64,000 nucleotides of DNA, taken from Bugula neritina (taxonomy: Eukaryota; Bryozoa; Gymnolaemata; Cheilostomatida; Bugulidae). The notes under the pieces are model-generated. The model did no database searches. It was not told the DNA's origin and saw only the letters and a program-made list of their open reading frames with translations. Position numbers and translations under genes: made by a program. Location of the stretch: the NCBI GenBank assembly GCA_964035545.1, contig OZ037766.1, positions 27,848,673-27,912,672 on the forward strand, in the 5' to 3' direction. Below, piece after piece: positions 22,981 to 61,576 of the stretch (the stretch's first letter is position 1; each line of letters starts with the position of its first letter).

Positions 22981-25546
22981 TTATCCGGAGAGAGCGCTCA
23001 ACAGTCTGTAGATATCCTCATATTCTCTGATTAAACTAAGATGATTCTCTAGGTCTATCAGAGCTAAAACATAACATCATAATAATTTTAATATCAAAAA
23101 AATTCCAAATTGTACGAAAGCAGATAAAATCAATTTTTAAATTAGTTTATATATTGACCTAATATAAAAACAGGATAGATTCATTTTTTGACATGTCCAA
23201 TGTTGTTTTAGTAGCAAGTTAAGTTTTTCAAAATTGGAAATAAAGCAATTTCATTGTACTAAAATTTTAAACATCTCAAATATTCTTTTTATATTTTATT
23301 TCAATAGTTAACTAGAGCTTTTAGAATTTTTATAACTATCTTGCATTGCCATTTACAAATAAACATATTTTAATATGGCACTAATTGCTTGAAGAATACA
23401 GTTCTATCACCACAAACATAATTATCTCATAAAATACATATTTTTAAAATCACAGTTTGCAGCTTAATATGAAGTAACATGAAATTTTTTTGACATTTCA
23501 AATTTACTTTGTAACTAAAATTCTGTAAGTATAAACAGCGATAGATAGACCTATTAAAGAAATCCAAATTCTTTTAGTTTTTATAGAGATTTTTCTAAAA
23601 GTTTTATTATTATCATATACATAATATACACCAATACAAAGTACTTTAATATATATAGTTGCTATTTTATATTTAAATTAGTTAGTTTGGTAACTATAAA
23701 CATACTTAGACATTGATTAAAGGGAGCGAAGTACACGTATCCGTTGCAGCAGACGACATTAGCATCCGGGCACTCTGGGTCTACTTGAATATAGTTATAG
23801 TCTACATAATATTCGGTTGTAGTTCTGAAACATATGAGATAGTTCAATATTTACACATGTGGTGAAAATAGACACAATTTTTTCGTAATAACCTGAAACT
23901 TATAAAGTTCATAGTCTCAAGCTAAATGGCTTTGTGCTTGACTCATGCGTTGTAATTGGGAAAACTATTTTTTCAGAGTCAGTTTTGGTTACATATTTCG
24001 CTGAATAATTGAAACATGAGGAAAGCACAAAAGATTGACAGGTGTGCAAGTAATAAAGAAAGTTATCCAAAGAGAAATTTTATGAAAACTGGTTATTATA
24101 ATGGGAAGTTATCTACTCTTGACATTTAGACATGGTAAGACAATTACTAGTATGTGGGCCTTTATTAGTAATTATAGGAAAGAAATCTATATTGTAATTA
24201 GAGATTGAATTTTATCAACACATGACAATATTAACTTTGTTATTTAGAATTATACATATTCACCAATACATTACAAATATGATACAGCATTGCGCATGAT
24301 AAAATGATGCAATAAATAGACCAAATTTTACATATAGGAGTTGTCTTACATGACAGTGGGATATCTGGAATAACATCTGCTCATTCCATATAGTCTACAT
24401 CTGTAAGAGTGTCCCGCGTAAACAGTCCTAGTTACAGTCCTGGCCCGAACCTATGAAGAGGTTACAGCAAAACATAATTTAGTAGCTTTACAATACTGAG
24501 TCACAACCAGAATGCATAGGAATGTACTGGTTATATTATGTCATCTTATATTGTAATATGATATAATTTCTACTATCTGCATGCAGCTGCTATACTAAAC
24601 ATTATGCTACAAAGCCGGTTGCCAAACATAGTTTCATAATTGTCATGTCAACGTACACCCAAATATAGAAACATAAATATTTCCTAAATCATTCAGTGGT
24701 TTAAAAAAGACTCACTCAGTGCTATAAAACATATCAATACAATTTGCAAAAATTTGCAGATGGAATGTTATTTAAAAATTAAAGTTGATATTTTATTATT
24801 GCGTAGACAGCTTCAAATTATTCTAAACTAAAGAGTATATCAACTCACCACTTCATGTCTACGTGTTGTACCAACAGTGAGCGTCTTGTTACAGCAAAAC
24901 TGAGAGTTGTCTCGCAAGGAAATAGATCTTTTAGATATTCCATTGCCTTTCAGCATGTCCTAAAATAATGGATTGTACAAGTCTCATGATACACACAGCC
25001 ACTCAATGTTTTTGTCACTGTATAAATGACTATTTGCTATTTTTCATTCACAGCTGGTTTTTTCATGAGCAACATACATGGCATTATAAAATTATTAGTT
25101 AGCTAACCAACACTTACGCCATCGTAATCTAAAATAGATAATAATATGTTGATTATTTGTTTTTCTAATACGTCTTAGAACATATATATGTGTTTTCAAT
25201 TAACGGAATGTTATCCGTTAAATGAGGACAGAAGTAAAAATAAACCATCATAAAAGCTTATAAAGTTTTATGCTGTAGCTAGATATAGCTATTATCATAA
25301 AGTATAATATATAACAAAACATAATCAAGTTACCAGTGCTTGAACACATTCGTCAATCATGCTTTGCTTTTCATCAGCAGAAAGCAGTGACAAGGCATTT
25401 CTAGTTTCCCAACTCAGCGAAGTTCCATTATCTCCAGGCACAGCTATGCTGTCATTATAGTCTTGTGTGTGGGAAGAGTTCAGCTGTGGTAGACTTTTGA
25501 CACCCACAACAAGTACTACTAAGGTAATGGCAGCTATGATCTTCAT
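22981..25546 (-). CDS. Paralog A: secreted nine-cysteine protein with EMI-like domain, five coding exons
   Basis: Spliced CDS, minus strand: 25546-25334, 24959-24849, 24450-24350, 23824-23706, 23063-22981; 627 nt, 208 aa, TAA stop. All four introns are GT-AG with phases 0, 0, 2, 1. Residues 1-18 are a hydrophobic signal peptide (MKIIAAITLVVLVVGVKS). Residues 19-80 are an acidic pro-region with a SADEKQSMIDEC motif (Cys67). Lys81-Arg82 is a possible convertase site. Eight further Cys follow at 93, 94, 126, 134, 160, 167, 168 and 180; a Tyr-rich run (EYYVDYNY) precedes CCNGYVY, which resembles an EMI domain. Residues 183-206 form a Leu-rich charged helix. The start ATG is the one directly before the hydrophobic core and is shared with B. 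The family is not one I can name; the secreted nature is well supported, the EMI assignment is inference. Confidence 0.88.
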
Positions 25547-25596
25547 GTTTATATAATGTGAGCACAGCAAATATAAAGGGAAAATGCTCTTTGCTC
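25334..25596 (-). other. Paralog A exon 2 (5' UTR end plus signal/pro coding part)
   Basis: Acceptor TTCTTATAG lies just above 25596 and donor CTG|GTAACT at 25334/25333. The 50 nt before the ATG are noncoding and nearly match paralog B. A first untranslated exon ends at 25859 with donor GTGAGTAT, so translation begins in exon 2. The reading frame runs open upstream of the ATG (to 25612), but that extension has no homologue in C, D or F. Confidence 0.7.
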
Positions 25597-25858
25597 CTAT
25601 AAGAAAATTCAATGCAAAATTGGTTAAAACTAAACCAGGTGAAACTAAAGGAAAATCTAAATTAGTTTAATATATCACGCAAAATTTGAAATTGCAGCAT
25701 AAGGGTTGCATGCACTGAGGTGTAGAAATTAATTATAATGACACAAAAATATTTATCAATAAAATAACTTTCTAAGTATTATAAGAATGCTGAACAATAA
25801 AAATATACTAGCTAATTTAGTTAAAATTCAAACATGTAGTGGTATAATATATACTCAC

Positions 25859-25921
25859 GAGACACCAGTTGGCACTGTGGACAAAGAGTGAAGAATTACA
25901 AAGAAAACTTCTAGTTATATA
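25859..25921 (-). promoter_or_regulatory. Paralog A TATA box and 5' UTR exon
   Basis: On the minus strand TATATAAC lies at 25921-25914, followed about 55 nt later by a consensus donor (GTGAGTAT) ending a short noncoding exon at 25859. The same TATA, short exon, donor order occurs before every copy in the array, which is the main support. The transcription start, expected near 25885, is inferred. Confidence 0.65.
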
Positions 25922-27060
25922 CACATTTTCTGATGATTTCATGCTTGCTACCATAGTTAAACTCTAGTTGGTGAAAACAAACGGAAATATGATGTGACCT
26001 AGCAGATCAGGAACCAGGAAAAAGAAGCAGACCACGCTTTATCTCTTAGCCAGCTATAAGGCCTAATTATTCTAATTTGTTTGTCAAGAAGAATAACAGC
26101 TGGAATACATCCAACTTTCTGAAAATGAAAAGTTATACAAAGAGTCAAATCAACACGTTGATTGGTGAATTTAGTGCTGTTTTATTACTTGAGTAGGTCA
26201 CATTCGTGGTGAAGTTTTGGATGCAAAGTTGTGTTTATGATATTCATGAAATCATTTCGGTTATTACTTTTTCATTTGTTTTTATAAAAAAACATGTATC
26301 AGCAGTATTGAGAATATGTTGCCACACAAATAATGTAGTTTATAATCAACAACTGAGCTTGGACTGAAAACAACTACTGTGAATATTATTGAGAGTCATC
26401 ATTATTAACTTCAAGTCAGATGCAATCTGTGGAGTAAAATAAATTCATTACATAATTTGAATATTCACAGTCTTCATTTTAGTTTTAGTTTCAAGCAACA
26501 TTTATGATATCCAAAAGAATTATAAAGTATATGTAATATACAATATATAGTATTGAAAAGGGTTCGGTCATATGATATTATATACTATATTGTGACGCAG
26601 TCATAAGTGTAGTTTGCATGTATAGGAGTCATTGCAATGAAAAAGTTACCTTGAAAAGCTAAAAACCTGAGAATAAAAAATCCATTAGCATAATAATTTA
26701 TAATTTTAATACTGAACACTAAGTAATAACCAAATATAGCCTTTTAAATAAAAATGTGAGATTATACCAGAAACTTCATATACATGTATAATATTTTTAC
26801 TAAAATGATTTCATGCTGTCAGCTGTATGATATCTACAACTTAAAAAATGTTATGCTATAAGAAGTTGCAAGACTAAGAAGACATGAATGCTAGCTTGTC
26901 ATATTTTGCTCTAACAATGTACATATATATCATCTTTTAGTTTTTTAACTTTGTGACCTTATATAAGTTGAACAAAGCAGTTTGCATTAAATAGTAGAAG
27001 AGGTAAAGGGTAAAGGCCACGATGGGCTTAAAAGTTAGCAGCTTTTTGCCATATACACGA
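25922..27060. other. 5' flank of paralog A and A-B spacer
   Basis: The first 280 bp share the gaaccaggaaaaag and ctttatctct blocks with the B and E upstream regions. The rest holds no gene that I can support. Confidence 0.5.
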
Positions 27061-27071
27061 ACACATATATG

Positions 27072-27330
27072 TATGTGTGTGTGTGTGCGTGTGTGCGTGT
27101 GTGCGAGTGTGCGAGTGTGCGAGTGTGCGAGTGTGTGAGTGTGTGAGTGTGTGAGTGTGTGAGTGTGTGAGTGTGTGAGTGTGTGCGTGTGTGCGTGTGT
27201 GCGTGTGTGCGTGTGTGCGAGTGTGCGAGTGTGCGAGTGTGCGAGTGTGTGAGTGTGTGAGTGTGTGAGTGTGTGAGTGTGTGAGTGTGTGAGTGTGTGT
27301 GTGTGTGTGCGTGTGTGTGCGCACGGGTGT
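27072..27330. repeat. Hierarchical 8-bp minisatellite
   Basis: Units GTGTGCGT, GTGTGCGA and GTGTGTGA occur in ordered blocks, and the whole order is repeated about 114 bp later (GCGA blocks begin at 27103 and 27217). Three overlapping His-Thr frames on the minus strand are artefacts. Confidence 0.9.
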
Positions 27331-28504
27331 GTATATAATACAAATATAAAAACTAAATCACATTCAAAGTTGGTTTGTTGCATAATCCCATTTTTGTGTG
27401 CCAAGCTTGTCAGGGTAATAAAAGTTTACTAACATAACTCAAATCACATCTCTCTGATGAGTGGTGCTGAAATTATTAATATAACAAGTATTGCTACTAG
27501 TTACTTGAAAGAGGAAATGGTTACCTGTTTAGTTTTGTGTAATGTGAGCTTTTGCAAGTGCTGCCTAATAAATATAACTATAGCTACATATATGATGGAA
27601 CTCATCTCCAAAACTTATAGCATAACATAGATGTTATACCCCCATGCAGGGAGTTAGTTTATCAACGGAAACACTCTTGTAGGTTTGATTAATTATTAAA
27701 TTAATTCGTTGACTATAATTTATGTAGCATGCAGAGGATGACAAAATACATGTTAAATAATCTTGTAACATTATAGTGTTCCAAACACAGCACACCACAC
27801 TCACACTATTCACTAAAGCTACATAAAGCCCTGATGTTGCTTATCATTAAAGCAACAGACTTGGTTTCAATACAGGGGCAGCAACAGTTAATAGAATACC
27901 GAGGCTTTGTCAGCATTTTTAAAAATTATTAGTTTTCGTAAGTTGCCATTATTTTGCTCTCATAGTTGCTTTTTCTTGTGATAGAATTCTCACAACCATG
28001 TTTATGGTAGATAGATATTTTATTGTTTTATTATGGTGACTGCTATTAGTTTGGAAATCTCCCATTTATAGTTATTAATAGAGTTATGTGCTCATGGTAA
28101 TATAATTAATTTCTAAAAGCTATATATAAATTTGAGGCAAGAATATTTTGCAATTTTTAAGACTTACATGCAAAAGAGAATGTTTGCTGCCTATACAAAG
28201 GACCTCTCAAGTTTATATATTATTAGGTTTAAAAGTTACAAGAAAAGGTGTGGAAAAGCAATTAAACAATTTATTGTAAACATTTGAAAAGAAAACAGGA
28301 ACTATTTTGCTTTAAGAGGGATATTAATATCATTAAATTATTATTGAATAAACTTGAAGTAAATCTTCAGTGTGATATTTATAAATGGTTAAAAATTAGA
28401 CAGGAAATTAATAGTGTTTAATTTGCAAGAAGAATTATAACTTTGTAGTTACGATCAGCCTATAAACATGCTCTGTTTAACGCATGTTTACTTTATATTG
28501 CGAA

Positions 28505-30667
28505 TCAATAATAGCCAAGCAACCACAGATCATCTTCATACCTTCTCCTTAAATCCAGTTCATTCTCCAGCTGTATAAAGGCTAAAAAAAAGAATATATA
28601 ATATATGTGGTAGTTCAAAACTTTAAAAATGTGAAGTTAGATCAAACTATTTTTAAGTTATTTTATAATGTATATTCATGCAATAAAACAGGCGCTGTTA
28701 TAGCACAACTTTTAGCAAAATATTTATTCTCTTGACACATTTAACATTTATTTTCGTATCATTTTTTGTAAAATTAATAACGATAGATCCTACATTGCCC
28801 GGTATGTTATAAGTAAAAGTTTCAAAAAAGTTTTAATGACCTTTATCTATTTTTATTCTAACAGCTGTTTTTTATAAATTATTGTATTACTTATAATTTG
28901 ATTTTAAACTAAGTTTTAATACGTAATAGCTTAAGCTAGCAGCGTGCAAAGACGCTTATCTGGTAACAAAAAACAATTTATACAGTTTTGTTTTTAGTTT
29001 ATGATGTTGAATAAAATATACAACTTAACTAGATCTTAAAAGAAACACAGTTTATAGATGATCATATTAACATAGCCTACTTACATATGCATTGACCAGA
29101 GGGAGGGTGGTACACGTATCCACTGCAGCATACAAGATTTGCACTCGAGCACCCTAGGTATGATGTAACCTCAATATAGGTATACTCTGCATAGTACTCC
29201 GTTGTTGTCCTGAAACAGATAAAGTTGTAGTTCAGTATTTGTGAATGTGATAGAAGTGGACCCAACACAATTTTGATTTCTATTTAACAATCAAGATATT
29301 GCTATGAATGTTGCAATGATATTTTATGAATGCTAAATGTATAAAGAGCATGCAGATAATATTATAAATAGCTTTATTTGCTATTTGAAACTATAAAAAA
29401 TGTAACGGAGCATTGAAAATTTTGTAATATTGTACATGATAAGATGGTGCGAGAAATAGACTGCAATATATTCAGGAATTGTCTTACACCACACTAGAGG
29501 ATCTAGAATGACATCTGCGTATTCCGAACAAGCCACATCTATAGGAGCGGCTACTGTAAACAGTCCTAGTTATTGTTTTAGCCCGAACCTGTAAAGAAGT
29601 AACAGCAAACAATAATAAAAATAATAATATTAATGAGGTGCAACTAAAATCATATTATAGTTTATTGGTTATATACAATCTTGTAATACACTATGATTAA
29701 GTGTTAGACGCAGCTTACATGCAGCTGCTACTTATATGCTAGAAAATTATTTCATCTGCTAAAAATAACTGCATCATTTTTATGTCAAGTTACGCCAAAT
29801 ATAGAAAAATAAATAATACATTAATCATTCCACACTTTCAAAATCAAGCTCACTAGTAATTATACCAATACAAAAGATGTTGATGCAATTTTATTTAAAA
29901 TGTTTAAGGACAGTTTTTATATCATAAACATGCAGACTCAAAATATTTATTTATTTGTAAATTAAGAAAATCAGTGAGCCTATAATATATTGGTTAGCAT
30001 ACTGCACTACAAAATTTATTTAGCTGAAAAGTATATTAACTCACCACCCTCCGTCTGCGTGTTGTACTAACAGTGTAGGTTCTGTCACAGCAGAAATTGT
30101 TTCCCCAATAAATGGACCTTTTAGATATTCCGTTCCCTTTCAACTTGTCCTAAAATAATGGAATTATATGCAGGGAAAAAGATACAAACAGACGTAGATA
30201 GCTATCAGTTATGTTTAATTTACAGGTAACTTAGTCAAATTGATTTTTAGATAAAATTTATGCCAAAAATGCAAAAAGAGGGATCATAGCAAAACGTAAC
30301 TTCATGTATTTATTTTAAAATGCTTGGAACTTGCGCAAATTTGTCGAAATAATTAGAAATAGTTAAATAATTTTGTACTGTAACATGACCAACTCAATGC
30401 AGAGTTATCCATTATTATAAAGTAATATTACATAAGAAAACAAAATCAAAATACCAGTGCACGGAGACACTCATCAATCATGCTTTGCTTTTCATCAGCA
30501 GAAAGCAGTGACAAGGCATTTTCAGTTTCCGAACTCAGCAAAGTTTCATTATCTCCAGGCACAGCTATGCTCTCATTATAGTCTTGTGTGTGGGGAAAGT
30601 CTAGCTGCGGTAGACTTTTGACACCCACAACAAGTACTACTAAGGTAATGGCAGCTATGATCTTCAT
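28505..30667 (-). CDS. Paralog B: secreted nine-cysteine protein, EMI-like
   Basis: Spliced CDS, minus strand: 30667-30455, 30149-30045, 29588-29488, 29209-29085, 28581-28505; 621 nt, 206 aa, TGA stop. Intron phases 0, 0, 2, 1 as in A. The first 22 residues, covering the signal peptide, are identical to A. The pro-region differs at about ten positions. ISKRS at 79-83 keeps the dibasic site. The third exon is two codons shorter than in A (YWGNN before FCC). Cysteines fall at 67, 91, 92, 124, 132, 160, 167, 168, 180. The loop before the last Cys is HPPSGQ. The C-terminal helix (QLENELDLRRRYEDDLWLL) keeps the LEN motif. Every splice site is canonical and no disabling change is seen, so the gene looks functional. 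Confidence 0.87.
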
Positions 30668-31027
30668 GTTTATATAATGTGAGCACAGCAAATATAATCA
30701 GGAAATGCTGTTTGTTCCTCCTGAAATGGCAAAAATAACTGGTTTATTTCACTAAAAAATTCAAACTAAAAATATTTGAATTAATCAAATATAATGAATG
30801 CAATTTGAAATTGTAGTATAAATGCTACACTGAGTTGCATGGACTACTAAATTTTAAGGACACAAAAACTATATCTACCCATACCTAATATTTTTTTATT
30901 ACTATAACAAAGTAAAAAAATAAAATAACATAATTAATACAAAATTCAAACTTGAAATGTTACAAATATGATTTTCAATGAAAAAAGAATTGCAACTTGA
31001 AGAGGAAAGTTGCAGTGTTACACTTAC

Positions 31028-31090
31028 CAGACACTGTTAGGCAATGCTGCCGAGTAATAATGAATTAACAAAGGAGCTGCTTTTTATATA
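31028..31090 (-). promoter_or_regulatory. Paralog B TATA box and 5' UTR exon
   Basis: Minus-strand TATATAAAAA at 31090-31081 is the best TATA match of the array. The short noncoding exon ends at 31028 with donor CTG|GTAAGTG; the next exon opens at 30720 after CATTTCAG. Start site near 31055 is inferred from the usual 30-nt offset. Confidence 0.68.
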
Positions 31091-31749
31091 CATGGTTTTC
31101 TGATAATATTATACACGTGACTATTTACTGGTATTTAAAGTCTGAACTCTAGATGATTAGCAATGAGACAGAACTCTTAGCATGGTTGACTGCCAGCAAC
31201 AGGAAAAGTGGTGTTGGCAGACACTTTATCTGTCACCCAGTTAATGCACCCAGTTAATGCCTAATTACTTTGTTTTGTTTCCAAAAAGGATACAACTGGG
31301 GTCAAATCAATCTTCTGAAAAATCGCATATAATGAGCCATATAACAGCAGTTTTATTTTCCCAGATGGGTCACAATTGTGGTTAGTTTTATGTGCAAGAT
31401 CAGATTACATTTGTGATATTCATAATACGATTTACAGTTATTGCTGTCATATCTTTTTGATAAATAAATATGAAAAGTGTAGAAAATGTGTATACTACAA
31501 TAAATAACCAAATCCACATCTATATCTGTGCTATAATATGTGATTGAGATTCTTTTATACCCAATTTATAATTAGATGTTGTAGCCTGTTAGCTGGTACT
31601 ACCTGTAACCTAATCACACAGATATAGATCATGAAAATCTTAGAAATTGACTACTATATGAAATACTAAGGAATACTAACTATATGCTATAAGCTAAATT
31701 GCTTTTCTAGGAGATATTTAAATTGATAGTTTAGTGGAATTTCTAGAAA

Positions 31750-31788
<39 letters not shown>

Positions 31789-31880: not shown

Positions 31881-32017
31881 CTCTGGCTTGAGTTTACACA
31901 CCTTTTAAATATGCTTTAGTAAAACTATAAGTTTTACTATTGCGAAGGTGTGGGCCATGGTACTCTGTTCTGTGCTGATGAGGGGACAAATCCCGAAACA
32001 GCTGCTGTCCACAGATT

Positions 32018-32087
<70 letters not shown>
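31881..32087 (+). mobile_element. Repeat element ending in a (TA)n tail, copy 1
   Basis: ctctggcttgagtttacaca up to gctgctgtccacagattgag, then (TA)n to 32087. About 95% alike by eye to copy 2 at 33589. A TA tract also lies upstream (31755-31784). gctgatgaggggacaaatcc followed by gaaacagc resembles the 3' region of retroelements, but the family is not established. Confidence 0.55.
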
Positions 32088-33588: not shown

Positions 33589-33860
<272 letters not shown>

Positions 33861-34501: not shown

Positions 34502-36959
34502 TTATCCATAACCCCTAAACATTAAAAAGTTGAAATAAGCTTGATATCGCCTCATCATACTCAGATATCTCTCTGCTTCTATAAAAGCTACAAAAATGTA
34601 GTAAAGAAGATTGGTAAATAATTGTAACACGTTTGTTTATAATAGTGTAGATGTGCATTATAGGCAGTAAAAATTATCAAGCACCAACTTGGATACATTG
34701 TAGTTGGCAAATACTATAAGAAGAATAACATAATCTATATATAGGGACATTGCACAATAGTGGTAAATGTTTAACACTTATAAAAGTATTAGTATAACCG
34801 ATGAGTCATGCTTAATAAAACTTAAACCCTCATTTTATAATTTATATTTTAAAACTTTTTTATATAAGGTTTTATTATGTAGCATTTTCCTTTATACCTG
34901 CAGCTACCATAACAGGCTTATCATTGAAGTGCATGTAACACCAAGTGTTTTTCGATGTTAGTTACAGAAAAATATGCAGCTGGTACCGTTTTATAAAGTT
35001 TCACTATGTCTATTATACATGTAGTATCTGTAAATACTTACTAAGGCATTTTCTTAAGGTAGGATAGTACACATAGCCAATGCAACAAACAATATTAGCT
35101 TCTGGACAGGAGTTGTCTTCTACAATAGTGATGTACTCCTCATAGTATTCTGTTGTTGTTCTAAAACAGGGGACACAAGTTGTTTTAGAAGTGAGTAGAT
35201 TTTAACATATACGTAGAAACTTTTTAGAAGTAATAGAATTGCAATTAGAAAGTCCCATGTCTATAGTTACTATTTTTTGCTATAACTACGATATTTTTCT
35301 GTAACTTACTATTTTCTCACATATGATACTGTAACTCATTTAATAGGTTGATGCACATTTTTGTGAGGTTTCACGGTACTGCACAGAATTAATAAAAGGT
35401 TAAGAATGGAAAACCGATATCTTTTCATGCAGCATCAATGCACCTTGGCTTCAAAGTTATCAATTCAAATCAAATAGAGTTTGAAAGTTTTTGAAAGTTC
35501 TATAAATAGATGAACGTTTAGTAGAGATAAATTTCGTTATGTGAATATATTAATTAACTTTATATCGTCAACTAAAACTGTCTAATCTATGCACCCATAA
35601 TTGTTTGACAATGTACAATGATAAAGTTTTACTGTAGTGTATGCCTGAAGAGCTTTTTAAAATATAGGGAGTAGCTTTGAATAGTGATACAGCTATAAAC
35701 TGCTGTTGCATTTGCCTAAAATAACTTGTTACTATGAGATACTAAAATAACCTTACACTGTTGTGTTGAAAGCAGGAAAATAAAAGGGAATGCATTGGAT
35801 ATGGCCTATAAGCCCACATACATAACGACCTCCTCTTTGTACGACTTTAGTTACTACTCTGGCTCGGACCTGTCAGCACAACACAGAATGAGCACAATAT
35901 TGTATTACAAATTACAAAAATGTATTATGCAGCCAAATAGAAATATTTGTATATGTATAAAGTTCTGGCAGGCTCATATTTGGTCATCAATCTTAAAATT
36001 TAATGCTTGTTTACCATGGTTATAACCACAGAGCTTATTATTAAGTTTTTTTCATTAATTCAGGAAACATCTAAAATTTTAACCTTTCCTTGTATATGTA
36101 AAATTTAATAATAGAACTTGTAAACTTAAAAAACTCACCACTTTCTTTATGCGTGTAATTGTAGTTGGAGTTGTGCTACAACAGGTATTAGGGTTGTCTC
36201 CTCCCTGGACTGATCTTTTCACTATTTCACCACCATTTTCTAACAAGTCCTAAATATATATCAAAAAGAAAATTAGTTTAAATCTTCCCTGAAAGCGCTT
36301 TGATTGTGATAATTTTTAATTGAAAGACAAAATTTATTGAGGTAGATGCAGTGATGAAAACATTTGAAAAAACCCATGTTTGTAAATAAAAAAATATTGT
36401 AATAGAAGTTATGTTCTTGAAAGAGAGTTTTAACCCAAAGCTCGTAAAGACAATGTTAAAAAAGTTAGGCTGTTTAACTTTCTCTGTTCATGCACCTATT
36501 TGAGTCTAACACAAAATAATTAAATATAGCAAAAGTTTTAACAAATTGCATTTCTCTATTTTTATAGAAAATTTCCAGTACACTAGTTACCACATACACT
36601 GTGTTCTTGTAATTGACGAAATTGCAGTTGATTTTATACACATTTATAATACGTGTACATTTTGATTTGCGGTGTATTTTTACATAGTGTTATTATATGT
36701 GAAATGCTATAATAAAATATATTGGAGACAATTCTAATTCACTCACCAGTGCATGGATGCATTCATCAATCATGCTTTGTCTTTCTTCAGCAGAGAGCAG
36801 TGACAAGGCATACCGAGCTCCTGCATCTAGCAGATTCTCCCCATCTTCAGGTACAGCTATGCTGTCATTAAAGTCTTGTCTGTGGAGAGAACCCGGTTGT
36901 GGGATACCTCTGACACCCACAGCAAGTACTAGCAAGGTGATGACAGCTATGAGCTCCAT
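34502..36959 (-). CDS. Paralog C: secreted nine-cysteine protein, second subfamily
   Basis: Spliced CDS, minus strand: 36959-36747, 36249-36139, 35869-35757, 35160-35042, 34587-34502; 642 nt, 213 aa, TAA stop. Signal peptide MELIAVITLLVLAVGVRG, then a pro-region with HRQDFNDSIAVPEDGENLL and SAEERQSMIDEC. The dibasic site is IVKRS (Lys82-Arg83). The fourth exon carries four extra codons relative to all other copies, so the spacing between the fifth and sixth Cys is 29 rather than 25. The fifth exon ends with CCIGYVYYPTLRKC. The C terminus (EAERYLSMMRRYQAYFNFLMF) is more hydrophobic than in A or B. The signal/pro exon is nearly identical to paralog D, while later exons diverge sharply. Confidence 0.87.
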
Positions 36960-42836: not shown

Positions 42837-45421
42837 TCATCCAGAAATAAGCGAGGTAAAATAGAGAACATCTCGATATTCTCTCATTAAACTCAGGTGC
42901 CTCTCTGCTTCTATAAAAGCTACAAACACACAACAAAAGCATAACTGTATTAAATATTTATAATAACATGAATGCGTATTTGTTGATGCGATAAAAATGT
43001 GCATGAACAGAATGTGAGAGTTATCTGCTATTCAACCTAGCTAGAATTTAAAAGGAAAACCTCATAAAAAGCATCATGTTAAATAATGATGGAAAGATTC
43101 TTGGACATTTAGAGCAATAATTTTACCACATTAGGTTCCATATAATGAAACTAAACTGCTAATGTTTTATTGCTGTCTCCAAATTGGTTTTACGACATTT
43201 TATTGCATAGCTTTTTCTTAAACCCACAACTATCATATTATGTTTTCATTTTTAAAATGTATTTCATGACACCAAATAGTATTTTTTTAATAATGACTAC
43301 CAAAACTATATTGCTGTAGACATTGTTTTTTAAAAAAGAATAATTTGCTATCTATAATACATGTAGTAGCTATAATAAATACTTACTAAGGCATTGTCTT
43401 AAGGTAGGATAGTACACATAGCCACTGCAACAAACAATATTAGCTTCTGGGCAGGAGTTGTCTTCTATAATAGTGATGTACTCCTCATAGTACTCTGTTG
43501 TTGTGCTAAAACAGAAGACTCAAAATATTTTGTTTTACAAAGAGTATGCTTCAACATATTCCAAATTATGCGAGTATTTTTTCTTTTAACAAACTGCAAA
43601 TTTTATTTTATATTTTGTAAGTATAATTCTAACTATGCTATATTTGCAATCCTGTTATAGCTTCTGGTTATAGAGTGTTGGTTTTTCTTGAACCTGATAA
43701 ACTATATTTTGATTTGATGTTAAAGCTTTAGTAAATATATATTTATTACCCAAAGTTATTAGTTAATTTATAAATCAACTTAAACTCTCTAATGTAAAAC
43801 CTTATGATCGTTTAACAATGTACAATGGTTAAAGTTGTATCACTGTGTAGGACAGCCTAAGCTATAGCTGATTTAAAATAGCTATTAGGTTTGAATACTG
43901 TTAGATGAATACTGTTGCTTTTGCAGTAAATAATTATATGCAATAAAACAATCTTACATGGTTTCGGTAAATGGAGAAATGCATCTGAATGCGCCCATAA
44001 ACCCACATACATAACGACCTCCTCTTTGTACGACTTTAGTTACTATTCTGGCTCGAACCTGTCAGCACAACACATAGAGCACAATGTAGTATAACAAGTT
44101 GCAAAAATGTATAATGCAACCAAATAAAAGCATTTTTTGTGTATATAAAGCTTTGGCAGGTTCATATTTGGTCACCTCACTCGAAATGGTGCTGTTATAA
44201 TGAAAATTATAATCACAGATTGAGCTCATCAACAAGTTCTGTTATCAAAAAGCATTTGAAATTTCCACTAATATTTGTATGTAAAATGCAAAACTAAAAA
44301 CTGTAACTTTTAAAAAGCTCACCAATTTTCGTCTGCGTGTAATTGTAGTTGGAGTTGTGCTACAACAGAAATTAGAGTTGCCTCCACCCTGAACAGATCT
44401 TTTCACTATTTCACCACCATTTTCTAACAAGTCCTAAATATATATCAAGAAGAAAATGAAAACAATGCAAAACTACTTAAATGACAAACTATACATTTTC
44501 CCAAATCTCCACAGTGCTCACTGCTTATGAGTTTAAGTCAACAAAATTGAAAACACTCTTAGCTTCTACCAAAGGTAATCGTTTGAACTAAAAAATAAAC
44601 TTTGCTGTAATTGTTGCTACATCATCAGGTGATCAGTAATGGTGCAAGGTGCTATCATATGTATTATTGTAGCCAGTTTACATGTGTGCAGCACAACATT
44701 CTATGCTTACAATGTTTTCTAAGACAGTTTAGGTTCATGAAATACAGAGAAGCTGTTATTAGATGTTTCTCTTTTAATTTGGAAAAATACATCTAAATTT
44801 TCAAATAACATAATGAGAACACTTCTCATTATATTATTATTTGAAAATTTAGATGTATTTTTCCAAATGTCATAATCTAATGATATGGTTGATACTTTAA
44901 AGGACTCAAATCCTCTGTGATTACATATCCTGATATATCATGATATGCATGCATAACACAGATAAACTGCACTAGCTACTTGCATCACCATGCCACAATT
45001 CAGTCAAGATCGACACACAAAAAATCTTAATATATCTATACAAATACAGCAGAACTGATTTTAAAGAAAAGTTGCAGTTGACTTATTTTGCATAGATTTT
45101 GATTCTTTATATGCATATACACATTGTCATATGTAGTATATTTTATGCAGATCATATTATGAGAAATGCCATAATAAAATATATTTGAGGCAATTCTAGT
45201 TCACTTACCAGTGCATGGATGCATTCATCAATTATGCTTTGTCTTTCTTCAGCAGAGAGCAGTGACAAGGCATACCGAGCTCCTGCATCTAGCAGATTCT
45301 CCCCATCTTCAGGCACAGAAATGCTGTCATTAAAGTCTTGTCTGTGGAGAGAACCCGGTTGTGGGATACCTCTGACACCCACAGCAAGTACTAGCAAGGT
45401 GATGACAGCTATGAGATCCAT
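42837..45421 (-). CDS. Paralog D: secreted nine-cysteine protein, closest to C
   Basis: Spliced CDS, minus strand: 45421-45209, 44433-44323, 44058-43958, 43505-43387, 42919-42837; 627 nt, 208 aa, TGA stop. The signal/pro exon differs from C at only about five of 213 nt (three residues). The third exon reads ENGGEIVKRSVQ and then NFCC. The fourth exon starts like C (RARIVTKVVQRGGRYVCG) but then diverges and lacks the four extra codons. The fifth exon contains EYYEEY and CCSGYVYYPTLRQC. The C-terminal helix (EAERHLSLMREYRDVLYF) is closer in form to A and E than to C. All splice signals are canonical. Intron 1, between exons 2 and 3, contains a foldback sequence at 44777-44868. Confidence 0.87.
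44777..44868. repeat. Foldback inverted repeat in paralog D intron
   Basis: atttggaaaaatacatctaa (from 44777) is mirrored by ttagatgtatttttccaaat (to 44868). The arms are about 43-46 nt with a 3-nt loop (cac at 44820-44822) and one 3-nt offset (extra tta on the right). Confidence 0.8.
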
Positions 45422-52183: not shown

Positions 52184-54115
52184 TCATAGAGCGCCTAATA
52201 AGTAGAGAGTATCTTGATATTCTCTCAATAAACTAAGGATGTTCTCCAGTTGTATAAGAGCTAAAACATATAACAATAACAACGTAGATTAAAAAGCATT
52301 TCCAAAATTATCTTAAAGGTCAAGATTGATGCAAAGTAATATAACAAACTGCTGCATGAAAACTCAATTCTGATATACTGTAAGGCTGAAGTTTTGATTA
52401 ATAATAGCAACTAAGCTATTGAAAGAGTAATCGATGTCTATAGAATTTAAAAACTTTTTCACCAGTTTTCATTATATGAGCCTCTTTTATTATATCGCAA
52501 ATACAGCTATATTGACTGTAATGTTTTATTATGCATGCTAGCTGTCTTATAGATTCAAAATAAAGTTTATAGATGGCTATTGACATACTTAGACATTGCC
52601 TAAAGTAATGGTAGTACACGTATCCGTTGCAGCAGACGACATTAGCATCGGGGCACTCTGGGTCCACCTCAATATAGTTGTAGTCTACATAATATTCTGT
52701 TGTAGTTCTGAAGTGAATAAACATGTAGTTCATTATGCAGTAGCCAAAAAAGACTCAAAGAAACTTTGAGTTTTTCTGTAACAATCAGCATTTAAGGAAT
52801 ACTAAATTATACATAAATATGCTATAGAGTTTATTAACTCTGCAGTTTAGAAAGACAAATATTAAAATATATACTAAAATTTGCACAACAATTTAATAAT
52901 AAAAAGGTAACAAATAGTATGCTATGTAACATTTGTCTTACACAACACGAGGCGATCTAGAAGAGCATCTGCGTGTTCCAAATAGTCCGCATTTATAACG
53001 TTTTCCGACATAAACAGTCTTCCTTATGGTCCTAGCCCGAATCTATCAAAAATATATTTGCGGTTTTTTTATTATCGGCTCTACAACAATGAAATGTTAT
53101 AATAACAATGTACTATAAATAATATGATTTATTGCAATGCAATATATTAATATAATTTATACTGTCTATAACATAAAGCTGCTATAGTCAGCAACATGTT
53201 ATAAAACAGGTTTGTCTGGTAAAGATACATGCATACCTTTTCATGCAAATTTGTACCAAATATAAAAGCATATACATTTACTACTTTCAAAGCGACAATT
53301 GTATTCACCAGTAATTATATAAATACTAAATTTGTTGATAAAAAATTGTTTTAAAATTCTAATTAAATATTCAACTATATTTTGAAATTACTAAGGTGAG
53401 TCAGATTAGACGACAACTTTAAAGTTTTTCTAAACTCACCACTCTCTCTCTACGTACTATACCAACAGTGAGAGTCTTGTTACAGCAGAACTGAGAATTG
53501 TCTCTCTCATAGATTGACCTTTTAGATATTCTATTGCCTTTCAGCATGTCCTAAAATATATATAATACAATTATACAAACCAATGTTATTGTCAACAAAA
53601 ATAACCGTCAGATATTTTAGTTTATGATCAATTTAATTATGATTTGCAGATAGTAAAAATTTTAATACTGTTACATAGATTATTATTCAGCTCGATGTCA
53701 AAACAGATTGATTGTAATATATAATGGCTATTTTTCTTATAAGATAGAATACAGGATTTAATGCATGAAATTTTATGCAAAGTTAAATTAGGGTAAAACA
53801 AAAAAATGCTCAATATGTCATTTGAAATTCTATAACTTCAACTTAACTAACTACACAGTTATTGTTAACTAAAGTAAAAATTACAGAATATAATCAAAAT
53901 ACCAGTGCTTGAACACACTCATCAATCATGCTTTGCTTTTCATCAGCAGAAAGCAGTGACAAGGCATTTTCAGTTTCCCAACTCAGCAAAGTTCCATTAT
54001 CTCCAGGGACAGGTATGCTCTCATTCTAGTCTTGTGTGTGGGAAGAGTCCAGCTGTGGTAGACTTTTGACACCCGCAACAAGTGCTACTAAGGTAATGAC
54101 GGTTATGATCTTCAT
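52184..54115 (-). pseudogene. Paralog E: array copy with one nonsense codon in the pro-region
   Basis: All five coding exons are present: 54115-53903, 53550-53440, 53042-52942, 52707-52589, 52260-52184 (minus strand; 621 nt). Splice sites are GT-AG and phases 0, 0, 2, 1 hold throughout. The only visible lesion is codon 30 (54028-54026): TAG where A and B have TAT (Tyr), a single T-to-G change. The rest shows no frameshift, keeps ISKRS, all nine Cys positions and the C-terminal helix (QLENILSLLREYQDTLYLL). The fifth exon is very close to A. The options are a very young pseudogene, a segregating null allele, a sequencing error, or stop readthrough. No in-frame ATG upstream of the pro-region exon end would save the signal peptide. 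Confidence 0.8.
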
Positions 54116-54376
54116 ATTTAACTTCTGTAAGAACAGCAGATATAATAAAGAAATATCATTATGATTATTTTTTAGATAAAAACATGGTTTGAAGTAAGAA
54201 ACAGTTGAATCTAACGAAAGACTAAACTGTATATTGCATAAAATTAGAAGTAGACACTCATGCATGGAATAATTGCACTGAAACAAACCTTGTTGTCGTT
54301 TATAATGTACTGTTTACTGTAAAGTAATTGGCAAATAACAAATAATATATGGAGCTTGTTATAGTGTTACACTTAC

Positions 54377-54446
54377 AAGAGACTAGCTAATTAAAGCAAG
54401 GTTGACAAGAAATGAAGAGTAACTTAGAAAACTTCTATATATATAT
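54377..54446 (-). promoter_or_regulatory. Paralog E TATA-like box and 5' UTR exon
   Basis: Minus-strand TATATATATAG at 54446-54436; noncoding exon ends at 54377 (TCTCTT|GTAAGTG) and the next exon opens at 54124 after TTCTTACAG. The promoter remains intact although the coding region carries a stop codon. Confidence 0.58.
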
Positions 54447-55600
54447 GAGTTCTTTCTGATAATATCATGCTTGACCTTTTACTATCTATAATGGAAAAGA
54501 AACTCTTCATTACTAGCAACAGGAAAAGTGGTGCTGGCAGACACTATAATAATTTATTACTCAGTTATTGCTCCAAGTTAATGCCTAATTACTTTGCTTT
54601 GTTTGCTACTAAAAAGATAGAAGCTGGAACAAATTCAAATTTCTGGAAAAGAAATTTAAAATGAGCTAGATCAGCACCAATGAATAGTTTTAACATCGAA
54701 GCGCATGGGTCATGATAAGGTTATTGCTATATGCCAGACTATGTTTATGGTATAGTAAGACCCTGATAGTCATTGGCTTTAATAAAAAAGCATAAGCAGG
54801 GTATATAATGTACTAAAATAAAGTACTGCATCTGGGCTGATTAAGTAACCCCCTATAGACACTCCAACAGCAAATGTCAGTCATTTTTATTAACATTCAG
54901 GCTGAATCGTACGTTGTACGGTTATATATGTACGTTGCGGCAATGATCAAACACTGCTTGATTAAAAAATTACTCTTGGTTCCTTTTGGGCAGCAAAAAA
55001 ACGCAAAATGTGAGATTGGGTAAAATCTATATGTCATTTTTTTGAACAGTTATAACCAATGAGTTAGTGTGGTACTAAAATGTATTTTAAAAAGAGAGTT
55101 TTCTTCTTTTAATTGCTTTTATCTATAGTGCATAATTATATTCACATTACATAAAAAAGCTGTTGTCACAAATGTGTCATGAACAATATCCGAAAACATT
55201 TAAGTGACAACAGAAAAGAATTAGCTTAATTATGATTGGTTACAGCTCAACAACATGCACTGTACTTTTTTAGTATGTGGCCGTATTTTGAGAAGTAATA
55301 GCAGAGTCATGTTGTTTTTGCTGTTGTGAGCTACTGTGCAGCAAACTGTGTCTAGAGGGTAAGATCTCACAACTGTACTGTGTTATATATAATGATATAA
55401 TGGTGAAATTCATTATTATATATATGAATTATAATGAATTGTTGACATATGCAATCTAATATTAAGTAAAATAAATTGATTTTATTTATTATTTATTTAT
55501 TTATTATAGTCACTAATAATTTTGGTTTCATGCGACATTTACATTTATAAAAGCTAAAATAATTATGATATATACCATGTGATGTTGAGTAGATATAAAC
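54447..55600. other. 5' flank of paralog E
   Basis: 54500-54640 keeps the agcaacaggaaaagtggtgc block shared with B. An attt-repeat occurs near 55480-55505. No gene. Confidence 0.5.
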
Positions 55601-55604
55601 ACAA

Positions 55605-55753
55605 ACATGCACACACACATGCACACATGCACACACGCACACATGCACACACATGCACACACACATGCACACACACACACACGCACACACACATGCACAC
55701 ATGCACACACGCACACATGCACACACACACGTGCCACACACCCGCACACACAT

Positions 55754-55811
<58 letters not shown>

Positions 55812-55963
55812 ACGCACACGCACACGCACACGCACACGCACACGCACACGCACACGCACACGCACACGCACACGCACACACACACATGCACACATGCACA
55901 CATGCACACATGCACACACGCACACATGCACACACATGCACACACACACACGAACACACAAAA
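55605..55963. repeat. Compound (CA)n / (CACACG)n / (ACACATGC)n minisatellite
   Basis: About 360 bp of alternating purine-pyrimidine: ATGCACAC units at both ends, a (CA)n core near 55755-55800 and (CGCACA)n at 55801-55875. Six His-Thr or Cys-Val frames on both strands are artefacts. Confidence 0.92.
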
Positions 55964-56119
55964 ATGAAAACTGACAGTGGCCAGTGTTCTATACATATAC
56001 TTAATATAGCATAATTCCAAACTATAAAAATAGTAAATTTTAGCTATCAGCATGTTGCAAAAAGACATATATTGATTATACACTATTTTTGCTCAAAATA
56101 GATGAGCTTCAAAAACAAG

Positions 56120-57530
56120 ATAATTATTGTTTTTTAATGTAGTAGTTTCTTGCCAGATGGTTTATGCATATGACTATATGTTGTTATTGTTGTCAAGAGT
56201 TAATTCAAAAACATTCCAACAGCCAGACATAATGATGAGACAAAAAAGTATAATTATATATTATTAACAAATTATTTTGCTATATTTCTTTCTTAGCTAC
56301 AAAATATTGATAGTAAAAACACAAGTCTTTATACGAACACAACAAAATTTGAGTGCAAAAGTTCACTTGCATTTGGCATAAAGTGGTGAAAAACATACCG
56401 GGAAATCAAAAAACAAATGAATATGCAACAGAAAGATAAGAACATTCTAAGTTCTCTCTATCTAGGTCAACCAATAAAATGTCAAATTTAAATCATGTTA
56501 CCATGACCAGCAATTGTTTTCTAACAAAATAGATCAATCGGTTTGCTGTGGCCTGATTTCAAAGTGGCCTGGTTTGTGGAAAAATTTAACTAGCAGTTGT
56601 TCTTGGTTTCAAGTTCGTTTGTCAAGTAAAACCTCTGCCGCAATAATATTTCTGTTCAAATATCAACAGCATCTACTACATAAATTATATTATTCTCACT
56701 AGACTGTGCAGGAAGTGAGTTAATGAGTAAAACAATAATATCTTTTGTCATCATGTAGCAAAAAATAAAAACATTTAAAAAGTCACAGCTAAAGGAAAGC
56801 ATAAGTGGATCAAAGTGCAAGTTTTACAAAACAACTCAAATCTATTAATTTACTGTTGACTGACAACAGATGAAGTTTATAGAGTAGGCTGTGATAGAAT
56901 TATAATAAATATACAGCTACTTGTATCCGAATTATGTATCATAATATTGAAAATAATGCATACACAAGTTGATTAAATATGACTGCTTTATTGATATTAG
57001 ATGTTTTATATATATTATACATAGTTGGTTGTAGTCTCATTATTAGACGTATAGCTGCAGTATATATAATAATAGAAACCTAATTTTTCACAAAATATGA
57101 AATAATAAAGTTGTTTGATCTCCATCTTATAATGAGTTTTATATAGTAATGGTTTTCAAAAGCTGTATAATACACAGCAATTTAATAAGTTTATAGCATC
57201 AGACAAGACAAAGAATGCGAAAGTTGCACGTGAAAAGTAAGTTTATTGGTGCAAAAAGGCTTAGTTTGAGAATGCAACAAATATTTATTTTGTGTCATCT
57301 GATGAGAATTTTATCTTTTAGTGCTGATCTCTGCTATACTTTTATAAATACTCATAGTTAAAAGTAATTTTGTAAAATATTAGAAAAACCAAACAAGATG
57401 AGTCTTTTTATTTATTTAACCAGTGAGAAAAGGTGCAGCTTTTCAAATATTTTAATACTTTAATACAAGCTATATCACCACTACTATAGTTGACTGTCTT
57501 TTAAAGGAAAAATACATGTCTTAAAAATAA
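56120..57530. repeat. Segmental duplication, member 2 (3' flank of the relic copy)
   Basis: Counterpart of 32240-33520, in the same orientation relative to the relic exon at 57.9 kb. It lacks the (TA)n element found after 33.5 kb, so that element probably inserted after the duplication. Confidence 0.7.
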
Positions 57531-57884
57531 TCTTTTATTTATCAAATCATAATTTTTCTGCAATAATATATTAAAAAAATTGATATTATATTTGATGTTA
57601 TAGCTATGTTAAATAGTGCTGTCATATTTCTTAGACTACTAGTAAATTATGTTTAAATATGATGATAAGCAACGCCCTGGTAATATTTCCTAATGGAAAT
57701 TGTAATATTCAAAAATGAATTTTTTTCTAAATATATGCTGCATGTGAGTAGTTTCAAATTAGGTATATACAAAGCATGATGTGGCAGCTTTCAAATATAT
57801 ATAATCACCAAATAATTTATACATGTCCTATAAAATTTTGCTATACATTTTGTTTATAAATACATTAACTAAATATGTACTCAG

Positions 57885-58003
57885 GCATTGTCTAAAGCCA
57901 TTATATAATATATAGTGCACAAATAGCAATTGCAAAGAACAATATTAGTCTCTATACTAGAGTTATCTTCCACTGCTTCTAGTACTCTGCTATAGCTGTC
58001 CTA
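57885..58003 (-). pseudogene. Relic fifth coding exon of a C/D-type paralog
   Basis: On the minus strand, TTTTTAG is followed by a degraded match to the D fifth exon: ACAGCTATAGCAGAGTACTA for the TTTEYY segment, GAAGATAACTCTAGTATAGAG for EDNSCPE, AATATTGTTCTTTGC for NIVCC, and TTTAGACAATGCCTGAGTA for the LRQCL end plus former donor. A small deletion follows the TACTA segment, the first Cys codon is changed, and the donor GTAAGT is lost. I could not find its other exons. The flank at 56.1-57.5 kb matches the 3' flank of paralog C, so this is the remnant of a duplicated C-type unit. Confidence 0.75.
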
Positions 58004-59428
58004 AAAAGAATGGGAAAGACGTTCTTAGTTTTGAGCAATTATACAATTGAATAGATTTATACTCAAATAAGTTTGCATAAAATTACTATTATTATTACTC
58101 TTTGGATGTCAATTTGTAATGCATAGAATGTGCTTATTGTAGTTTTACCATTTTCATCTCACTATATATAACAATTAACCTCTGATTCTAGAGTAATTGC
58201 TTTTATTTAAGTTTACTAGGCTATATAGTGTTATTGGATGTAAAAAACATATTTTATTAGATAAAATACCCAACTAACTTCAACATCACTTTTCTAATGT
58301 ATTATTAACTTATTGTGGCTTGGAAATGTGTGAATTAGATGATAATTATATACCACTACATATGGCTGCCTATGTGCTTATATGCTACTTTAAAATAGTA
58401 ATTAAAAACTAAATAATTACATAGATTTGCTATGCCAGAAGCTAAATCTGAAACTAGTTGTACCTTCTTCATAAAAGCAAATTCTATAACCCTCATAAAA
58501 CCTTTAAATAGACCCTTATGTGCCATTTACTATAGGAAATAATGTTTTTGCCATGCACATAGCTTTAATTAATTGAAATTGCTTACATGAACACAATAAT
58601 ATATCACCTTGTTTAGCTGTGAATATTTAATATAAGCTGGAGCATAATCTGCTTTCTGTTGCTGCGTACGTGACTGTGAAAACTATAGAAGTAATTGTCT
58701 GCACATGTATAAGTTATGCAGAGTGATCTTGTGAACCCTCATATAACTCAGATCTTGTTAAACTAGTATGTTGCCGGCAACTAGAACATATTTTTGATTG
58801 AAAACTCAATTAGCTGCAATACAAACAACTATCTAGGCATTTGTTGAAGAGATATGGTATAGTAATACATGAATATGAGTGCAGTGCAGCTAGCATATTC
58901 AGAGTTGTGCTCCCACTCGTTGAGTTATAAGCAATAATATAGCAACATCCTTAAAGGCACACGGATAACCACTGAACAAGATAATGAAAGAAAACTTCAA
59001 GTGAAATTGCCGCGATAGGGTATATGTATGTAACTGTTGACAATTTTCGTTCTACTTTCTAGCTGAGTTTAATTTAAATTTACTTATATGTCATTATATT
59101 TTGTTTCAGTAAAAGGGTTGATCATAGATATAAGCTAGACAACTGCATATAATAAGACGGAGAACCAACTTGTGTAGCTTTCATAACTATTATGCCATCA
59201 GCCTGATTTAAACAATTTATTTGTGAACTGGATACACTTAGAATTCTTATCTATGCTAATGCTTTTATATCTATTCTATTGAGGATAAAAAAAATTCACC
59301 AGCATGGCATGCAAATTTAACATTTGAAAAGAAAAGTAGTTTGAAAAGCTTTATTCTAAGATCAGATCAATATACATGATGAGTGCAAATTCTTTGTATT
59401 ACCAGTGCTGCAGTTCCTGTTTTATAAG

Positions 59429-59511
59429 TATATAAGAAGTTGCATAAACAGCATTGAATTTATTTGAATGCAAAGAAGTGATCATAATATACTTTCTCTC
59501 CATCTTTTCAA
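59429..59511 (+). promoter_or_regulatory. Paralog F TATA box and 5' UTR exon
   Basis: TATATAAG at 59429-59436 is followed by a noncoding exon ending at 59511 with donor CTTTTCAA|GTAAGTTT. The coding exon opens at 59796 after CCATTGTAG. Together with the E promoter this makes a divergent pair about 5 kb apart. Confidence 0.62.
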
Positions 59512-59811
59512 GTAAGTTTTGTTTTATTTATAAAATTTCATCAACACATTTCTTAGCAAGAATTATTAGGCTTTAAGTAATAAACAATTCAAAAGTTGTA
59601 TCATAACATTTTAAATTTTGTTTCATGATGCAAATGCATAAATATTTTTTGAGATATTTTATGCCCACTATTTATGGGAAAACCTAACAGTTTGATAAAC
59701 TATGTCAACATAGAATATTTGATATATTGTAATCCAAATCTTTTGATTTTTAAATTTGCATTTGCTAACAATTTATTTGAATTACACCATTGTAGAATCT
59801 CCCCTGAAGCT

Positions 59812-61576
59812 ATGAAGCAGATTATAATACTTCTCATGATCACATTTATGCCAATTATTTTGGCAAGGGGTAAAATTCTGTCAAGTGATCTTTTTGATGA
59901 GAATTATTATCAATCTGACGATCTTCTTTCAACTACACCTCCTAAACCCTCTTTAAGTGATGTAGATGACCCAATTTCCCATCTTTCTCAAAGCGAAATC
60001 AGAAAATTATTAAGAGAATGTGAAAGCTCTCTGGTAAATATAGTTTTAAAGCATTTAGTTTTACAACAACTTTATAAAAAAACCACATTAGGTAAATATA
60101 ACTAATGTGTTGAAAATTTGCATCAAAATATCATATTAATATATTATCATTACATTATTTATATAGTCAAACTAATAAAAAATTTTCACTTTTTCTTTTG
60201 ATTAGGTTTGCTTTCCAAACATTAGAAAACTTTTTTGTCTTCAATATCAAATGTCTTCAAACAATTATTTTTATTCATGGAAATTTAGGCATTGCAATTT
60301 AAGATTTAGACATGAGTTATATTGGATTTGTAATTTTGGCCTATAAGCTTCACATGGCAGGGCGAAAAGAATTTGGGCCTCTTTTAGAACATGTTCAATA
60401 GGTAAATTTACAAATTCTTTAGTGGATACTTTATTTAACTTGTACCCTTTAAGGTTTGGTGTCGTGGGAGGTGTATATTAAGAAAAATGCTACATTTAAA
60501 AACAAGTCAATTAGGTACCTCAAAGCAATAAAGCACCTGAGTTATTTTTATCTTGAGCATCTGATATAGTGCTGGTAAAATATTCTTTTTTGTTTTTGAC
60601 TTACAGTAAAATAGAATAGAGAACCAATTATGTTATGCAATGACTCGTGAGGGTTTGTTAATAGTAAGTAGCATTACAATCTGTAGATTGAAGCCGGGGG
60701 TATCATAAGACCAAAGAGAGATGTGGAATATGACAACTCTCAGTGGTGCTGCAATAAAACAAACTTGGCCACTCAATACCTTAAGCAAAACGTGGTAAGT
60801 GATATACTGAAAGACATGTCATTTATGGGCTGCATATACTTTAGTCATTGATTATACATTATAAAGCTGCATGCAACTTTTTATCTTTACAAATTTTAAC
60901 ATCTCCAGTTATGTACTTAAAAGAACTTGTATTGTCTTGTAGATCAGAGCTAAAGTGGTCACCAAGCTTGTAAAACTTGGTGGCTCATACTCTTGTGGTT
61001 TCTTAGGTTTAGGGAAGTGCAGCTCCTCTAGTGACAGTGTTATGTAAGTATTATATACGCTACAATATTTAACATGATCATAAATGCTAACGAAACCTCA
61101 ATTTGTATGCTAATAAAAATAATCTAAAAGCTACAATCAGCAACTATTCTTTTAGCACAGTTTTCCTTACTAGATCTGCATGTACCGTTATTTCTACACA
61201 AATATCCAAATATTTCATCATTTTTTCAGAACCACTACAGAATATTACGTTACCTATGAGTATTTAGCAGTAAAAGATGCCTGTCCCGCTGAAAATACTG
61301 CCTGCTGTAATGGGTTTGTATACTACCCATGGTTTGACAACTGTTTGAGTAAGTATAGATGCACAAATTCTAATATAATACTTTTCTGATGAACTGTATG
61401 TGCAACGCATTGTGAATCTTTTGATGTAACTTTTCATTTATCCCAAATGTTCTAAAATATATGTTTATACTATTTTTTGTTTAGCATACCAGGAAGTTGA
61501 AAATAATTTGCAAATCATAAGAGACAACAAAGATATAATAAGAAAATTGAATAAACGTCTTCGTTTCAAGGAATAA
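59812..61576 (+). CDS. Paralog F: divergent plus-strand member of the array
   Basis: Spliced CDS: 59812-60033, 60687-60794, 60943-61043, 61230-61348, 61485-61576; 642 nt, 213 aa, TAA stop. Intron phases 0, 0, 2, 1 match the minus-strand copies. Signal peptide MKQIIILLMITFMPIILA; an acidic pro-region with LSQSEIRKLLREC (Cys70) replaces SADEKQSMIDEC. The dibasic site is RPKRD (84-85). The eight-Cys domain keeps the framework: WCC at 95-96, C128, C136, then EYYVTYEY, then CPAENTACCNGFVYYPWFDNC. The C-terminal helix is longer and more basic (ENNLQIIRDNKDIIRKLNKRLRF). Sequence identity to A-E is low outside motifs, so F is an older branch. The frame is open upstream of the ATG but interrupted by the acceptor at 59795. 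Confidence 0.87.

Follow-up and report, generated by a model that had tools for sequence, protein, structure and literature searches.

A stretch of 64,000 nucleotides (hereafter the window) on chromosome 2 of the bryozoan Bugula neritina (Bryozoa; assembly tzBugNeri2.1, positions 27848673-27912672) contains six related genes, five on the minus strand (copies A, B, C, D and E) and one on the plus strand (copy F), which are predicted to encode small, secreted, cysteine-rich preproproteins. Five coding exons were rebuilt in each copy. The intron phases after coding exons 1 to 4 are 0, 0, 2 and 1 in all six copies, every intron between coding exons is bounded by GT and AG (24/24), and the predicted proteins are 206-213 amino acids long. 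A preliminary description of this DNA, made from its letters, had proposed a tandem array with a common exon plan and common phases; the rebuilt models bear this out, and the outer ends of the array (22981 and 61576) agree. The reading frame runs open to the final stop in five of the six copies, the exception being copy E, in which codon 30 of exon 1 is TAG; its splice sites and the exons that follow exon 1 are nevertheless intact. Because of this stop, which the preliminary description did not mention, copy E was counted as a probable pseudogene.

Copy A (coding 22981-25546, minus strand) illustrates the plan. Exon 1 (25334-25546; self match at E 4.5e-41, with paralogues also matched) encodes the signal-like start and pro-region, and in the rebuilt model it is followed by exon 2 with a Lys-Arg (KR) site and the first CC pair (24849-24959), exon 3 (24350-24450), exon 4 with the C..CCxGY..C segment (23706-23824) and exon 5 with a Cys-free tail and the stop (22981-23063). 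On the same strand lie copy B (28505-30667; exons 30667-30455, 30149-30045, 29588-29488, 29209-29085 and 28581-28505), copy C (34502-36959; exons 36959-36747, 36249-36139, 35869-35757, 35160-35042 and 34587-34502), copy D (42837-45421; exons 45421-45209, 44433-44323, 44058-43958, 43505-43387 and 42919-42837) and copy E (52184-54115; exons 54115-53903, which holds the TAG, 53550-53440, 53042-52942, 52707-52589 and 52260-52184). Copy F occupies 59812-61576 of the plus strand (exons 59812-60033, 60687-60794, 60943-61043, 61230-61348 and 61485-61576).

Profiles built from the six window copies were scanned across 154 kb of chromosome 2. A seventh, intact copy (G) with the same exon plan was recovered at 69282-70936 in window numbering (exon 4 profile match, E 6.9e-20). 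The six copies of the preliminary description thus become at least seven, in addition to more distant relatives. A single exon relic had also been described, and it is present: an exon 4 of the C/D type, gapped and with its CC lost, at 57882-58000 of the minus strand (blastn E 2e-6 to C and 9e-5 to D). Its local alignment scores were 73 with C and 72 with D, against a maximum of 41 among shuffled sequences (200 shuffles each); scores with A, B, E, F and G were no higher than those of their own shuffles.

The predicted proteins share a layout that runs from a signal-like start (the signal peptide of the array copies was judged by eye) through a pro-region with one conserved Cys, the KR dibasic site and an eight-Cys module to a C-terminal tail, 24-29 residues long, in which Cys is absent. 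The module, of ~95 residues, follows the pattern CC..C..C..C..CC-x-G-Y/F..C. The KR site stands at one position in all seven copies A-G. The mature part that follows it is 124-130 amino acids long (~14-15 kDa), with eight Cys in 7/7 copies and an isoelectric point between 6.1 and 9.0. The shared Cys framework and signal-like start of the preliminary description thus hold across A-G.

The protein databases were searched with an alignment of five of the six window copies against 5.77 billion proteins, and three proteins with E up to 10 were returned among 4,894 candidates, the best at E 1e-98. Two are B. neritina 'hypothetical proteins' in NCBI, EB796_014537 (P0002, 239 aa) and EB796_014539 (P0001, 231 aa), which belong to the same family; the third, from a metagenome, has 175 residues and continues past exon 1 into sequence that resembles an intron. 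The mature part of copy A is 87% identical to that of P0002, and that of copy D 91% identical to that of P0001. Both proteins carry the KR site, and both, although from another assembly, run through the same exon joins as the array copies. For each, the contig of origin is given as 34,451 bases long, presumably one and the same contig. They differ from our models by an N-terminal extension that stems from a 5' exon, and no function is named for them. Their assembly derives from a Virginia colony, and its genes were called with AUGUSTUS under the guidance of transcriptome hints (PMC7576161). The exon joins proposed here are therefore supported by hint-guided gene models. It also follows that ordinary eukaryotic gene finding sees at least some members of the family, and the earlier statement that ordinary open reading frame calling misses it does not carry over to such methods. 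Likewise, 'undescribed' was too strong a word for genes of which two are already in NCBI, even though no paper on them was found in the open PMC literature. That the array is more than a chance arrangement is confirmed by these two separately annotated proteins, at E 1e-98, and by the recovery of copy G outside the window.

The N-terminal extensions bear on the sixth exon that had been proposed for each gene. In copy A, the 5' exon ends at 25859 (minus strand), directly before a GTGAGT donor, and the joined letters resemble P0002; joining 25859 to 25596 yields 21 residues ahead of the start Met, of which 19 are identical to P0002. The stretch between this acceptor and the ATG (25547-25596, minus strand), which also matches the P0002 N-terminus, is probably untranslated. 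In copy D, the last base of the 5' exon lies at ~45845 (minus strand; counted by hand), followed by GTATGG, and a join there agrees with the end of the P0001 N-terminus as read by hand; the tblastn match between that N-terminus and the 5' region of copy D had an E of 0.063. Donors resembling these were seen by eye in B and E. Since no in-frame ATG occurs in the part of the 5' exon read in A and D, this exon is probably untranslated in both. The six-exon plan is thus better described as five coding exons plus a 5' exon that is supported in A and D.

Pairwise comparisons among A-G gave a ratio of nonsynonymous to synonymous divergence (omega) below 1 in all 16 pairs with a finite synonymous divergence (dS), ranging from 0.26 to 0.79 and highest for the pair C/D; the remaining 5 of the 21 pairs were saturated. 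There is, therefore, no sign of general positive selection, and the mature part diverges under purifying selection (omega 0.23-0.83 for the 16 pairs, out of 21, whose dS was finite). These values are difficult to reconcile with a nonfunctional array, whether a repeat family in decay or exon-like stretches that arose by chance. The stop codon in E and the relic exon are what such a reading would predict, yet six of the seven copies (A-D, F and G) are intact, splice sites are kept and A and D have counterparts in another B. neritina assembly; we regard nonfunctionality as very improbable. The family is, with high confidence, real, mostly functional and secreted, as judged from these sequence features.

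The two halves of the precursor have diverged to different extents. In exon 1 of copies A-E (e.g. 25334-25546 and 45209-45421), neighbouring copies are much more alike than in the mature exons, silent sites included. In close pairs, dS of the pre-pro part was far below that of the mature part: 0.033 versus 0.225 for C/D, 0.187 versus 0.793 for A/B and 0.095 versus 0.484 for A/E. At the protein level, A shares 87% identity with B, 88% with E and 88% with P0002 over the pre-pro part, while over the mature part it shares 87% with P0002, 72% with E and 57% with B. A tree of the pre-pro part contained no supported fork. Homogenisation of exon 1 by exchange between copies, in the manner of gene conversion, would explain these observations best, the alternative being strong constraint on the silent sites of exon 1.

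The same contrast bears on a role in defence, under which an antimicrobial, lectin-like or deterrent protein would have been diversified through tandem duplication. Tandem, secreted, Cys-rich genes whose mature parts are more divergent than their pre-pro part would suit such a role, as would a taxonomic range limited, in one protein search with the array, to Bugula and a single metagenome fragment. P0001 also gave a weak match to CLIP_1, an immune-protease domain (E 0.094; 13.1 bits, the cut-off being 26). However, the mature part shows no excess of amino-acid change, its greater divergence extends to silent sites, and no Pfam match came close to a cut-off. We consider defence rather unlikely, and the effector, pheromone, toxin-like or immune function suggested in the preliminary description was borne out by none of the analyses run. 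Growth of a secreted module through lineage-specific tandem duplication has a likeness in the C1q-domain genes of bivalves (PMC6835236), although the module there is unrelated.

Divergent relatives of the array were identified both nearby and elsewhere in the genome. Relatives I and H lie, like copy G, within 35 kb to the right of the window, and the 154-kb profile scan matched their exon 4 at 77.4 kb (I, E 0.059) and 95.7 kb (H, E 5.8e-5). Relative I is complete, with four exons ending in a stop; the model of H is without a tail exon and its first exon is tentative. A genome search with the H exon returned J on chromosome 1 (E 0.0027), K at 32.78 Mb of chromosome 2 (E 0.058) and L on chromosome 3 (E 0.39); a weak match on chromosome 4 (E 0.67) was rejected, as no such module was seen there by eye. 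With J as the query, K was matched at E 7e-9 and H at E 0.014; with K as the query, J was matched at E 5.7e-9 and H at E 0.10. J, K and L possess both CC pairs and the same eight-Cys module, with one module per 10-kb stretch read, and exon 4 of all five relatives is, as read, flanked by phases 2 and 1. The last open frame of K looks helical. In J, as read, the signal-like exon runs directly into the CC module, and no KR was seen by eye ahead of the module in either I or J. Alignment of the array profile with that of H-L (hhalign) gave a probability of 97.2% (E 3.3e-11, 84 columns), a score reached by none of 80 free and none of 80 Cys-preserving shuffles; single relatives scored 96.3% (H), 94.1% (K), 91.3% (J), 89.9% (L) and 50.5% (I). 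These comparisons support the view that a small family, also represented at other genomic sites, has expanded in the branch that forms the array.

Outside the family, the one resemblance to stand out from shuffled controls is to the EMI domain. With a yardstick of 31 distinct EMI domains from vertebrate MEGF10/11 (the pattern was present in 46 of 98 proteins), the H-L profile aligned at 88.6% (E 2.6e-6, 52 columns), and none of 80 shuffles in either of two control sets (160 in total) scored as high. Among subsets, J-L with H reached 60.6% and H with I 72.5%. EMI domains (MEGF10/11, EMILIN/multimerin, periostin/TGFBI) are extracellular, take part in multimer formation and, like the array module, end in CC-x-G-Y..C; a W-x-x-C-T-R-like stretch was seen by eye in H, J and K. 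The EMI domain holds three disulfides (six Cys) and occurs singly, at the N-terminal end of larger extracellular proteins (PMC11949838). The array module has eight Cys, of which six can be matched by eye to EMI positions and two are extra, and it sits behind a pro-region with a KR site in a short protein that ends in a tail.

Several results weigh against EMI kinship. Alignment of J-L alone with the EMI domains gave 12.3%, and single relatives gave 30.1% (H), 15.3% (J), 12.9% (K), 4.3% (I) and 0.4% (L). The array alone scored 2.2%, and all 14 sequences together 7.2%, a value equalled by 3 of 160 shuffles. In global mode the 11-sequence set fell to 0.2% and H with I to 16%, and when H and I were shuffled with their Cys columns kept, one control came near (29.0 versus 30.5). 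Comparisons with the periostin/TGFBI EMI domains did not exceed 14.2%. All scores stayed below the Pfam EMI cut-off (PF07546, 25 bits), the best being 10.9 bits (L) and 7.5 bits (K); array copies A, B, C, D, F and G, relatives H, I and J, P0001 and the mature part of P0002 gave no match. The structure prediction for P0002 was also poor, with a mean predicted local distance difference test (pLDDT) score of 53.3 and a predicted template modelling (pTM) score of 0.27, and secondary structure alone is quoted from it here. The outside resemblance thus arises through the divergent relatives alone, with no direct match between array and EMI. Because the scores of the array alone, of all 14 sequences, in global mode, against periostin/TGFBI and in Pfam are low, we call the module EMI-like with two extra Cys, a reading we favour somewhat over its denial, and the array is not classed as a member of the EMI family. 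Genome-wide, one sub-threshold Pfam EMI match was observed (C6:5637838-5637942, 18.8 bits).

The pro-region, conserved KR, single secreted module and mature size would also suit a protein hormone or cytokine-like ligand, in which the KR cut frees a disulfide-rich factor acting on a receptor, as with Spaetzle or growth factors with pro-regions. Spaetzle and coagulogen are cystine-knot proteins, secreted as precursors and freed by proteolysis, with a CC near the end as in the array, which, however, is without the C-x-C after the CC. Among the relatives, L had a weak match to Pfam Coagulin (E 0.01; 16.2 bits, the cut-off being 25). Against a ligand, relatives I and J show, as read, no KR ahead of the module, and profile comparisons were low in 10 of 10 cases, at 0.2-1.3% for coagulogen (1aoc) and 0.1-0.4% for Spaetzle C-106, both single-sequence yardsticks; in six tests on the coagulogen comparisons, between 2 and 25 of the 60 shuffles scored as high. 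Kinship with Spaetzle and coagulogen is not supported by these profile comparisons, and a hormone or ligand seems unlikely. A survey of B. neritina peptide hormones names insulin-like peptides, GPB5 and others (PMC4990251).

Less probable again is an extracellular protein with no EMI ancestry that serves a structural or adhesive function in colony wall, cement or brood chamber. The mature parts are Tyr-rich (9-16 Tyr per 124-133 residues), and the low-confidence P0002 model places strands at 127-143 and 166-182. On the other side, low-complexity repeats were not seen in the array proteins, and the EMI link of the relatives counts partly against this reading.

The explanation we put forward, at about even chances as a whole, is a lineage-expanded tandem cluster of genes for secreted, convertase-processed preproproteins with an EMI-like module, which perhaps self-assemble. 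Secretion and cleavage are suggested by the layout of the protein: the precursor would enter the secretory path through its signal-like start, and a proprotein convertase would then cut after KR, releasing module and tail. Cleavage at this site is likely: as in proprotein-convertase substrates, a dibasic site (KR, 7/7) is conserved where the pro-region borders on the mature part. The mature protein might self-associate or bind to surfaces, whether in the cuticle, the extracellular matrix or a body fluid. This role in assembly or binding is a conjecture, held tentatively and suggested by the amphipathic tail together with the EMI-like kinship. In the P0002 model, helices occupy 70-77 and 81-100 of the pro-region and 210-233 of the tail, where pLDDT is 77 and 81 for 211-230 and 63-64 in the adjoining blocks; amphipathicity as high was found in at most 23 of 500 shuffles for five of the eight tails (A, E, F, G and I). 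The tails of B, C and D were not significantly amphipathic (500 shuffles), which counts against such a role. Tandem duplication would supply variants, with conversion-like exchange keeping signal and pro-region alike while the mature parts diverge.

Elsewhere in the window, positions 31921-32086 and 33630-33795 form an interspersed repeat pair, 94% alike, whose first 100 bases match at least 41 places, spread over all nine chromosomes, with 96-100% identity (40 of the 760 candidates were scored); it is probably a mobile element. Long simple repeats of the CA/TG type at 26937-27425 and 55493-56092 are a source of spurious open frames. No recognisable gene was seen by eye among the open frames of positions 1-22500, where the only tRNA match was at 7360-7430 (31.6 bits).

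To our knowledge, bryozoan-specific gene families have been little studied. Two of these genes had been predicted earlier, and the wider array and its relatives go beyond those predictions, providing an exact gene set with exon coordinates (seven array copies and five relatives) that can be checked in existing B. neritina transcriptomes. The homogenised exon 1 beside diverging mature exons offers a clean case for tests of gene conversion between tandem copies. If the EMI link is true, the family would show an extracellular domain turning into a free, protease-activated secreted protein. On a broader and more doubtful proposal, bryozoans may have taken an EMI-like module, which in other settings belongs to large matrix and receptor proteins, and made it free-standing with an extra disulfide. 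One branch may then have gained a pro-region with a convertase site and become a tandem array, with a delivery part kept uniform by exchange between genes and a diversifying working part; together these would make up a modular extracellular toolkit, activated by protease, for life in a colony.

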